Virus record (IMG/VR): IMGVR_UViG_3300009603_000028
Coordinates: 1 to 37,396 of that record
Source: a virus
Strand: one strand, 5' to 3'
Length of the DNA: 37,396 nt
Of the stretch, positions 31,493 to 37,159 are shown piece after piece (within the stretch, counting starts at the first letter, position 1; each line of letters begins with the position of its first letter). The notes below the pieces were generated by a model that was not told where the DNA came from, ran no database searches, and was given only the letters and a program-made list of their open reading frames with translations. The position numbers were made by a program, and so were the translations under genes.

Positions 31493-32032
31493 TTATTTTT
31501 CAGCCCGAACGCGCTTGATTGCGGCGAGGGCAACACCCGCAATTTCATCCCGATCATAGAATGCTTCGAGATAGCTTTCTGCCACCTCCCGCGCCAGTTC
31601 CAAGTCAGCATCGGGCTTAGGCTCTAGTTCTGCGAGGATGGCGTCAAAATTCCTTACATGCTCGTCGGCTTCATTCGCCCAGTAGGATGCCTCATAGGAT
31701 CGAGGTTCATCCAAGCCAGTGAAATTGATTGCCGTGGCTCTAATCCTGTTGCGGGCCAAGTCCAAGTGATCGCGCATCGAGCGTAGCTTATCCACCAACT
31801 CCGGCGAAGGCGCATTGGCGGGCTTTGTGGTGCGGTTGCGGATGCGCCACGAAGGATCGTCACCGCGTCCGGTACTGCTGAAATACGGAGCATGCATGCT
31901 TTCAGGGATTCCGTCTAAACGATACTCACCATCGGCATCGGCACGATCCCAACCGCGACTTTTAGTTACACTAACAACCCTGCCGTCATCATGCACGGCC
32001 TCAAGCGGTGCGTTCCAGTCTATCTCGGTCAT
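31493..32032 (-). CDS. Hypothetical protein, 179 aa
   Basis: N-terminal strand-rich part (DWNAPLEAVHDDGRVVSVTK) and a long helical region (LVDKLRSMRDHLDLARNRI, ADEHVRNFDAILAELEPK, LAREVAESYLEAFYDRDEI). No family recognised. Its start lies just after the stop of the 202-aa gene and it ends the cassette before the HNH promoter. Confidence 0.65.
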   Translation of the reverse strand: MTEIDWNAPLEAVHDDGRVVSVTKSRGWDRADADGEYRLDGIPESMHAPYFSSTGRGDDPSWRIRNRTTKPANAPSPELVDKLRSMRDHLDLARNRIRATAINFTGLDEPRSYEASYWANEADEHVRNFDAILAELEPKPDADLELAREVAESYLEAFYDRDEIAGVALAAIKRVRAEK

Positions 32033-34711: not shown

Positions 34712-35162
34712 TGCCTGTCTCCGCTAAAACTACCTTCCCGTCGCGCTCGATAAGATACCCGCAGCCAAGCCCTATGCCGCGCAGTTGATCGGACATTGCG
34801 TCAACATGCTCTTGCGTCAGTTGCTTGGCAGGTGGAGGCAATTGTTCTTGCGGCGCATACCCATTCCAGCAGTCGTCCAGCTTGAAGGCCTTAGGCTGGT
34901 TCTCGATGAACTCCACAATTGTGGGCACGATCTGCGAAAAGTGCTTACAGGTCCGGCGCGCATGGCGGGCACCGCGCTCTAGCAATCCGAACGGGCTTCC
35001 CTGCAATTCGTAGGAAGCTACTGCCAGCCAGTCCGCTGTCTCTTCGGCGCTAAGTCCCACGGGCCGCACCAATGAGAGGCAGGCCGTTAGGAAGGCAGTC
35101 GTTTCCGCCTTCGTAGCTGGCCGCGAGGCGTTCGCCGATCTGGCGTGTGGTTGGTTTGTCAT
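34704..35162 (-). CDS. Replication-region hypothetical protein, 152 aa
   Basis: Helical core TAFLTACLSLVRPVGLSAEE, ADWLAVASYELQGSPFGLLE, HARRTCKHFSQIVPTIVEFI. A partner of the upstream initiator is plausible (helicase loader-like) but not shown by any motif. ATG 35162 has GGAG 8 nt upstream, but this start makes a 113-nt overlap with the initiator gene, unusually long. Confidence 0.6.
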   Translation of the reverse strand: MTNQPHARSANASRPATKAETTAFLTACLSLVRPVGLSAEETADWLAVASYELQGSPFGLLERGARHARRTCKHFSQIVPTIVEFIENQPKAFKLDDCWNGYAPQEQLPPPAKQLTQEHVDAMSDQLRGIGLGCGYLIERDGKVVLAETGNE

Positions 35163-35805
35163 TCTTAGGTCTCCATGCTTCCGCATTATCAATCCACTTC
35201 CGGAACGCGGCCTGCCAATCCTTAGATGTCCGTCCCTTGTCGGATGCGTGATCGCGGAACTTTTCAATCTCAACCTCAAGCATTCCTCTAGGCCAGCCAG
35301 AAACTATCCCTTGTGAACGCTCTGTCAGCTTAGGCTCCCAATCAGATGGGAGCGCGCTTGCGCGCCTAGAACCTTTAGGTTCTGGTTTATTGGTTACTTG
35401 GTTACTTGGTTCTTTTATGTCCCGCTGCTGTCCCGCTGCTGTCTCGGTTGCTGTCCCGCTGCTGTCCCGCTTACCGCTTTGGACGTCCTGATATTTACCG
35501 TAATTACATATAGTTATAATGCTACGGCCCTGTCCCGCTTTGCGCTCGATCATTGTCTCGGTTTCGAGACGGGTCAAAAACCGCTCAACAGCCGATTTAG
35601 ACCACTTCAGATCGTCGGCAATCTGTCGAATTGAGGCGCATAATTGGCCGCGCTCCAGCGTGATAGTGCTGCCGTGAACATCGAATTTTGTGGGCTTCCA
35701 GCATGCCTTGCAGATCAGCCAAATCCAGGCGCGCATTCGGTCACCATCCTGCAATAGGTGGTGGTCAATCATGTCCCTCTGGATGGCTACAAAACCGTTA
35801 TTCAC
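35050..35805 (-). CDS. Replication initiator-like protein (winged helix), 251 aa
   Basis: The N-terminal domain (FVAIQRDMIDHHLLQDGDRM, AWIWLICKACWKPTKFDV) and ASIRQIADDLKWSKSAVERFL, an HTH, are typical of phage replisome-organiser proteins (lambda O / DnaD-like N-domain). The middle is low-complexity and overlaps DNA iterons; the C-terminus (WQAAFRKWIDNAEAWRPKN) resembles the end of many such proteins. GTG 35805 has AAAGG about 9 nt upstream. It would bind the iterons and recruit host helicase. Confidence 0.75.
   Translation of the reverse strand: MNNGFVAIQRDMIDHHLLQDGDRMRAWIWLICKACWKPTKFDVHGSTITLERGQLCASIRQIADDLKWSKSAVERFLTRLETETMIERKAGQGRSIITICNYGKYQDVQSGKRDSSGTATETAAGQQRDIKEPSNQVTNKPEPKGSRRASALPSDWEPKLTERSQGIVSGWPRGMLEVEIEKFRDHASDKGRTSKDWQAAFRKWIDNAEAWRPKNDKPTTRQIGERLAASYEGGNDCLPNGLPLIGAARGT
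35390..35540. other. Probable replication origin: iterons plus AT-rich tract
   Basis: TTGGTTAC occurs in tandem (35390-35412, nearly three copies). Then TGTCCCGCTGC repeats at 35418, 35429, (degenerate 35440), 35452 and 35463, with an isolated TGTCCCGCTT at 35531. Between them 35490-35521 is AT-rich. The 11-bp period is not a multiple of three, so the repetition is a DNA feature, not a protein repeat. All lie inside the initiator-like gene, as in lambda gene O. Confidence 0.65.
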
Positions 35806-35863
35806 CGCTTGCAACCTTTCGGCTGTTCGGGTATTTCACCCCTTGAGGGCGCGGTTGTGGCAT
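35798..35863 (-). CDS. 21-aa peptide upstream of initiator gene
   Basis: A short basic peptide (PQPRPQGVKYPNSRKVAS). Perfect GGAGG lies 5 nt before the ATG, and its stop overlaps the initiator GTG, suggesting a leader peptide that couples initiator translation. Confidence 0.45.
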   Translation of the reverse strand: MPQPRPQGVKYPNSRKVASGE

Positions 35864-36112: not shown

Positions 36113-36440
36113 TTTCAATCCCCATCTGGCTAAGGCGCTCGCCTGATATACGAACAATTGGCGAAGCGAACGCACGATCATTGATCCCCATCGCTTCAGC
36201 TATCCCATCGAGATACGCCTTGGCGCTGGCGACCACATTGTCTTTGTCCGGTGCTGGCCCTTTGGGTTTTGGGTAAAGCGTGATTCGCACCGGAATAGGC
36301 TCCCCGTCAGCAGAGGGCTTTGCCGCCAGTGCGGCCCCATGCGCCCATGCACGATGCTTCTCTGTCTCGCGGGCTTTCTTGGCCCAATGGGCGCGCTTGT
36401 TCGGCCACAGGGGCGGCGCTGGATAAGGCAGGAGTATCAT
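36099..36440 (-). CDS. rusA: RusA-like Holliday junction resolvase, 113 aa
   Basis: The family pattern appears as LLPYPAPPLWPNKRAHWA at the start, PAPDKDNVVASAKAYLDG with D65, D67 and D78, and IAEAMGINDRAF with D88. These Asp residues correspond to the RusA metal site. It cleaves four-way junctions during replication and packaging. Coupled by TAATG to the DnaA-domain gene upstream and close to the probable origin. Confidence 0.88.
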   Translation of the reverse strand: MILLPYPAPPLWPNKRAHWAKKARETEKHRAWAHGAALAAKPSADGEPIPVRITLYPKPKGPAPDKDNVVASAKAYLDGIAEAMGINDRAFASPIVRISGERLSQMGIEIGKA

Positions 36441-37159
36441 TAGCGGTCCTTATACTTTTCATATGTGCTGGCGACACGCGGGTCTTTCCGGCAATATGTC
36501 GGGAACATGTGATATGCGTTGATCGTGGTGCTATGATCGCGACCGCCTAGTAGCCTTCCAATGACGGGATATGACGCGCCTCGCTCTTGCAGGATTTTCA
36601 CAAGCACGCATCGGGCATATAGGAAATTCTTCCCCCTCGCCTTGCTGCGCACACCTTCAGGGTCAATGCCGAACGCAGTGGCAACAGCCTGGATTAAATC
36701 ATGCAAGGGAATGCGGCCATTCGCAGGGTGTATGATCGTGCGCTCTACAATAGCAGCACGTATTTCATTGGCTCTACGGTTGGCCTGATCGCGCAACCTG
36801 CGCTTTTCCTCTCGCTCGCGCCTGTAGCGTTCGGCCTCGCGTTGCTTTTCGCCTTTACGCCTCTCAATGCGCCGATCTTCCATCTCGGCAGCATGAACAG
36901 CAAGGGCGCGCTCTACAGCTTGACGCTGCGCAATCACCTTCAGCGCACTGTTGATTTTATCGCGGCGGCACTTTTTGCATTGTGTCTTTCCGGCTATGGT
37001 GTGTGTGTTATCTGGCCCACGATGGTGGCCGCAAAGCCAATGTGTCCCCTTGGCGGTCTGGATCGCGGTTAGAAACGATTGGCTGCTACGGCGCATGGAA
37101 TCGCGATAGTCCGCAAAGTCTTCCGATGGTTCGGGCTCTGCAAAGTCGATGGCTAGCAT
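36440..37159 (-). CDS. DnaA domain-IV protein with zinc motif, 239 aa
   Basis: The C-terminal 90 residues match DnaA DNA-binding domain IV: IHPANGRIPLHDLIQAVATA, FLYARCVLVKILQERG and GGRDHSTTINAYH at 205-217, the DnaA signature. There is no AAA+ ATPase. The N-terminal part has CGHH (43-46) and CKKC (61-64), likely a zinc site, then a highly charged helix (about 90-135). It could bind host DnaA boxes or regulate phage or host initiation. The ATG overlaps the upstream stop (TGATG). Confidence 0.82.
   Translation of the reverse strand: MLAIDFAEPEPSEDFADYRDSMRRSSQSFLTAIQTAKGTHWLCGHHRGPDNTHTIAGKTQCKKCRRDKINSALKVIAQRQAVERALAVHAAEMEDRRIERRKGEKQREAERYRREREEKRRLRDQANRRANEIRAAIVERTIIHPANGRIPLHDLIQAVATAFGIDPEGVRSKARGKNFLYARCVLVKILQERGASYPVIGRLLGGRDHSTTINAYHMFPTYCRKDPRVASTYEKYKDR

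Follow-up and report, generated by a model that had tools for sequence, protein, structure and literature searches.

The DNA that encodes the wing and the linker of a phage initiator protein very probably forms the replication origin of the phage itself, with iterons bound by the initiator encoded there. The window analysed is the whole of an IMG/VR phage record of 37,396 nt, and from sequence patterns we infer that initiator binding, melting, helicase loading and the start of replication would all be located at this gene. As part of this reading, the gene product is in all likelihood a phage replication initiator composed of an N-terminal winged-helix domain, a disordered linker and a DnaT/DnaD-like C-terminal domain. 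In the proposed mechanism, several initiator molecules would bind CGGGACA sites of about 7 bp through their recognition helix, and the spacing of these sites by one helical turn (11/12 bp) would line up the initiators on one face of the DNA. The initiator oligomer would strain or melt the adjoining A-rich zone with its 8-bp repeats, and the C-terminal domain would then recruit the replicative helicase of the host to the opened strand. The features concerned are collected in the table, in which residues are numbered by the 254-aa form of the encoded protein.

Features of the initiator gene and its candidate origin (positions in the window)
Feature	Position	Strand	Details
Initiator gene	35050..35814	(-)	At most 254 aa with a TTG start; 251 aa with the alternative in-frame GTG start
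Winged-helix domain code, residues 8-109	35488..35793	(-)	AlphaFold2 model, pLDDT mostly 80-95
Predicted recognition helix code, residues 73-85 (K73 SAVERFLTRL)	35560..35598	(-)	Helix 73-85 in AlphaFold2 model; S72, K73, S74, E77 and R78 track iteron sequence
Possible degenerate unit GAGACA, 23 bp from wing unit	35554..35559	(-)	Sequence only
Isolated sixth iteron AGCGGGACAG in wing codons	35530..35539	(-)	Exact copy
AT-rich strip between wing unit and main array	35488..35520	(-)	79% AT; encodes conserved TICNYGKYQ
Disordered linker code, residues 112-152, containing the array	35359..35481	(-)	pLDDT about 30
Main iteron array	35418..35471	(-)	Perfect units 35463-35471, 35452-35460, 35429-35437 and 35418-35426; degenerate unit 35440-35445
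Candidate DNA-unwinding element, A-rich and purine-rich, adjoining the array	35370..35417	(-)	67% AT, 52% A on coding strand; includes the 8-bp repeat
8-bp tandem repeat GTAACCAA within the A-rich zone	35390..35411	(-)	Tandem Repeats Finder period 8, 2.8 copies, 100% matches
DnaT-like C-terminal domain code, residues 154-218	35161..35355	(-)	Pfam DnaT E=1.2e-3, below cut-off

The family best matched by the encoded protein is PHROG 2514, 'DnaD-like helicase loader' (E=1.1e-25, residues 5-150), which its relatives match as well, and the matches to phrog_391 and phrog_345, 'replication initiation O-like', are weaker (E=4e-8 and 4e-6, respectively). A Foldseek search with the AlphaFold2 model returned winged-helix proteins, all of them weak and generic matches (E of at least 3e-3), and a sequence search of the PDB gave no clear homologue. 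Residues 115-219 are matched by the phrog_3992 primosomal protein (E=3e-10), and we infer helicase recruitment as the function of the C-terminal domain.

The array within the linker code is the top-scoring tandem array of the window in Tandem Repeats Finder (35418-35471, period 11, 4.8 copies, score 85). The sequence-only reading had counted five units at 11-bp spacing, and the array is confirmed with the correction that there are four perfect tandem units, AGCGGGACA on the coding strand, and a degenerate fifth, GAGACA, with one step of 12 bp. On the coding strand the order is AGCGGGACAGC AGCGGGACAGC AACCGAGACAGC AGCGGGACAGC AGCGGGACA, and exact copies of TGTCCCGCT are found in the window only at 35418, 35429, 35452, 35463 and 35531. 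Four exact 8-mers chained at 11/12-bp steps were obtained in none of 60 Markov simulations of the window, 53 of which gave two and one of which gave three. When synonymous codons were redrawn under an unchanged protein sequence, none of 4000 simulations reached the GGGACA count or the lag-11 identity observed. Chance does not explain the array, either window-wide or with the protein held fixed.

A scan of viral sequences with a pair of units (22 bp) gave, among the matches listed, 25 further viral loci, most of which carry the array in the same kind of gene, directly after the winged-helix end ITICNYxxYQ. A set of 120 non-identical relatives was fetched from GTDB genomes and viral contigs by peptide motif, unselected for repeats; as the motif used was ITICNY, more distant initiators are under-sampled in it. 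Alignment A1 was set aside as too diverse to be used in scans. Directly after the YQ codons of these 120 genes, lag-11 identity is 0.423, and codon shuffles reach 0.293 +/- 0.004 (z=30). Further peaks appear at lags 12, 22, 23 and 34, and identity stays flat around 0.26 in the coding regions on either side. Of the 120 relatives, 109 have three or more exact 6-mer units at 11/12-bp steps, where 0.4 would be expected from codon shuffles, and positions +17, +29, +41, +52 and +63 are frequent. The position and spacing of the array are kept across relatives while the sequence of the unit varies. The raw count of GGGACA 11-bp arrays in viral contigs was dropped as evidence, since the control hexamer GGCAGA also gave at least 120; among the matches listed, 12 of 175 GGCAGA control arrays nevertheless fall within related initiators, whose unit is a different one. 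At another locus (L168:6-263), GGCAGA arrays lie upstream of, and not inside, an initiator-family ORF (392-1283).

Most GTDB loci come from alphaproteobacterial hosts, and the remaining hosts include some Bacteroidetes. Cultured phages with the layout include Sulfitobacter phage pCB2047-A (gene SUAG_00025, 5 units), Staphylococcus phage PVL, where orf46 holds 7 units of ACATCA, and Enterococcus phage EH-TP1 (3 units). The array is short or imperfect in several cultured relatives, e.g., Vibrio 1.167.O and Pseudoalteromonas SL25.

The sixth unit also extends to relatives. In 145 of 164 genes, the wing codons contain the unit of that gene, one mismatch being allowed, compared with 24.9 expected from the units of other genes, and a control region gives 25 compared with 20.9 expected. 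The isolated unit pointed out in the sequence-only reading is therefore a real and general element.

Codon and frame usage in the relatives, assessed by sequence comparison, show that selection acts on the DNA rather than on the protein, which supports a further point of that reading. The units of the array cover all three reading frames in 122 of the 164 genes. In the 31 genes with a GGGACA core, Gly-Thr is written GGGACA at 59 of 74 places in the linker versus 1 of 16 elsewhere, and Arg-Asp is written nGGGAC at 43 of 46 places in the linker versus 8 of 49 elsewhere. The fixed position and spacing with varying sequence, together with the covariation with the recognition helix described below, support the same conclusion. 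An explanation at the protein level would see in the repeats a low-complexity linker (GKRDSSGTATETAAGQQRD) that expanded through DNA slippage and whose DNA sequence plays no part, and the linker is indeed predicted to be disordered, such that repeat expansion could be tolerated there. Slippage is nevertheless already contradicted by steps that carry the units through all frames, by synonymous codons that are fixed to the iteron in the linker only, by the recurrence of a gene's unit in its wing codons, beyond the linker, and by a position that is kept while the sequence changes, leaving it with hardly any probability.

Units differ among phages and include CGGGACA, CCGGACA, CGAGACA, CGACGCA, CGATACA and others, which allows them to be compared with the proteins that would bind them. 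The site register was fitted by expectation-maximisation, and wing columns were excluded from the covariation claim because the wing codons contain iterons. Among 84 pre-wing alignment columns, those of R78, S74 and K73 best track the differences between units once relatedness is regressed out, and all three residues lie within the recognition helix of the AlphaFold2 model. Residue 73 pairs with base 4 of the unit, with Lys accompanying G in 51 of 60 genes, Glu accompanying C in 14 of 22 and Pro accompanying A in 16 of 19, and the two change together in 72 disjoint nearest pairs (p=2e-5). This pairing is in line with the common contacts of lysine with guanine and glutamate with cytosine. For the five key residues, the identity-corrected partial r is 0.376 versus 0.046 +/- 0.145 for random column sets (98/10000), a test in which some columns outside the helix, e.g., V11 of the ORF, also score well. 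The raw correlation of helix change with site change in the 72 disjoint pairs is no better than that of random columns (1053/5000). When distant relatives are compared, more bases of the unit are predicted correctly from the closest recognition helix than from the closest remainder of the domain (4.92 versus 4.23 of 7 bases, p=4.5e-6). Locus L278, which has an SKS-type recognition helix and an ACCCGA repeat and in which no CGGGACA array was found, is either an exception to the code or a case of a mis-detected array.

These correlations point to the encoded protein as the reader of the units. The repeats could instead be bound by another protein, such as host DnaA or the phage's own DnaA domain IV-like helix-turn-helix protein, which is encoded shortly upstream of the initiator at 36440-37159 on the minus strand (Pfam Bac_DnaA_C E=2e-13). 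Such binding is very improbable, as the iteron sequence tracks the recognition helix of the initiator itself and the DnaA box closest to the array, with up to one mismatch allowed, is not in its vicinity but at 31788.

For the site of melting, the sequence-only reading had named an AT-rich tract between units five and six as part of the origin. The tract exists, and the corresponding strip over the TICNYGKYQ codons is 64-69% AT family-wide (positions -40 to -1), a composition that is at least partly protein-driven because these codons encode a conserved motif. It may aid melting, and the likelier melting site, judged from composition and repeats, is the A-rich zone on the other side of the array, 3' on the coding strand. 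Only 0.1% of the 48-bp stretches of the window are as AT-rich as this zone, and the 8-bp tandem repeat noted earlier is present within it. In 170 genes, the zone from +60 to +120 nt after YQ is A-rich and purine-rich, reaching 54% A and 77% purine at +80 to +100, and it shows an excess of repeats at lags 8/9 in the relatives. The suggested check of GC skew lends no support to an origin, as the skew is negative throughout the window with no turning point.

Binding of the encoded protein to these sites could also serve an operator, copy-control or partition function and not an origin, as tandem sites in genes could repress transcription or pair DNA, and covariation speaks for binding and cannot separate these uses from an origin. 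A function of this kind is unlikely given that the protein belongs to replication families, that some 340 bp of the gene precede the array, which is therefore not at the gene start, and that the combination of array, A-rich zone and initiator gene matches known origins in lambda (PMC7466680) and pSK41 (PMC5703833). The proposal of origin-like iterons inside an initiator gene is supported by comparative evidence, comprising conserved position and spacing, synonymous bias and helix covariation. If the array is the origin, then the origins of hundreds of phages and prophages can be located directly in their sequences; for uncultured phages, origins are rarely known.

The C-terminal parts of the relatives fall into 39 clusters, the largest with 76 members, and the same units are found with several clusters, as if the winged helix and the origin moved as one module. 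A broader interpretation, to which we assign roughly even chances, is that these loci represent a very widespread class of phage origins that share a single geometry, namely 7-bp iterons at 11/12-bp steps that start some 17 nt past the NYxxYQ codons, together with one unit within the wing code. The class would have a readable recognition code, in which the identity of residue 73 determines base 4 (Lys-G, Glu-C, Pro-A) and base 3 responds to residues 72/74, and its module of winged helix and origin would pass intact from one kind of C-terminal loader domain to another. If so, the origin specificity of an uncharacterised phage would be predictable, and switchable, from its recognition helix. Provided that the array is the origin, more than 150 natural pairs of protein and site show how a winged-helix initiator chooses its DNA. 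Small swaps could then test origin specificity and, beyond that, how phages or prophages that share iterons compete.

Other arrays were noticed outside this gene family. Two inverted arrays of the AGCGGGACAGC unit (L032:328-640) occupy a largely non-coding stretch beside a long ORF, presumably a D5/P4-type primase-helicase. No initiator of the winged-helix family described here was found in this 39-kb record, and the arrays may form an origin that another initiator recognises. Intergenic arrays of TGTCCCTnAGGGACACCATAGGGACACCATAGGGACACCAT followed by AT-rich DNA occur at L038:3379-3406, L039, L043, L061, L085 and about 30 similar loci, and L132, L095 and L140 carry GGGACA arrays at both 11-bp and 8-9-bp spacing on both strands of one short stretch. 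GGGACA 11-bp arrays are also present in other replication-like ORFs outside the winged-helix profile (L145, L120, L149, L074, L116 and L088, the last with 14 units), e.g., GTVTGQSRDSHGT. The array-in-gene layout may extend to other initiator families.

Among phages of Gram-positive hosts, the lactococcal phages TP901-1 and Tuc2009 have replisome organizers with origin repeats inside the initiator gene. The family name of PHROG 2514 describes loading, whereas an origin inside the gene and its code are absent from the annotation. No description of 11/12-bp phage iterons, of a wing unit or of a residue-base code was found in the literature, the coverage of which was incomplete, making this weak evidence. 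Origins inside initiator genes as such are already known from lambda O (PMC7466680) and from pSK41 RepA_N plasmids (PMC5703833). In lambda, the iterons lie in the middle of gene O, between the parts encoding the DNA-binding and C-terminal regions, and are followed by an AT-rich zone, and extra iterons add amino acids to the O protein (PMC7466680). The parallel with the lambda origin drawn in the sequence-only reading applies to the layout, in that iterons lie within the initiator gene with an AT-rich zone beyond, but does not extend to unit size and spacing, as lambda has four 18-bp iterons 20-24 bp apart (annotated 39034-39118) and the phage described here has sites of about 7 bp repeated at single-turn steps of 11/12 bp, with one further unit in the wing codons. 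Lambda O and the encoded protein have no BLASTP similarity, and both match phrog_2514, phrog_391 and phrog_345. In pSK41, the N-terminal winged helix of RepA binds to four Rep boxes that lie within rep itself, the central linker encoded by the origin is dispensable as protein and the C-terminal domain resembles DnaD (PMC5703833). The likeness to such RepA_N systems consists in the origin inside the initiator gene and the winged-helix N-terminus; they differ in being plasmid replicons, and the encoded protein has no Pfam match to RepA_N at E<=0.1. In plasmid pPR9, the N-terminal domain and the origin have been replaced by phage-like sequence (PMC5703833), which provides a precedent for a winged helix and its origin moving as one module.
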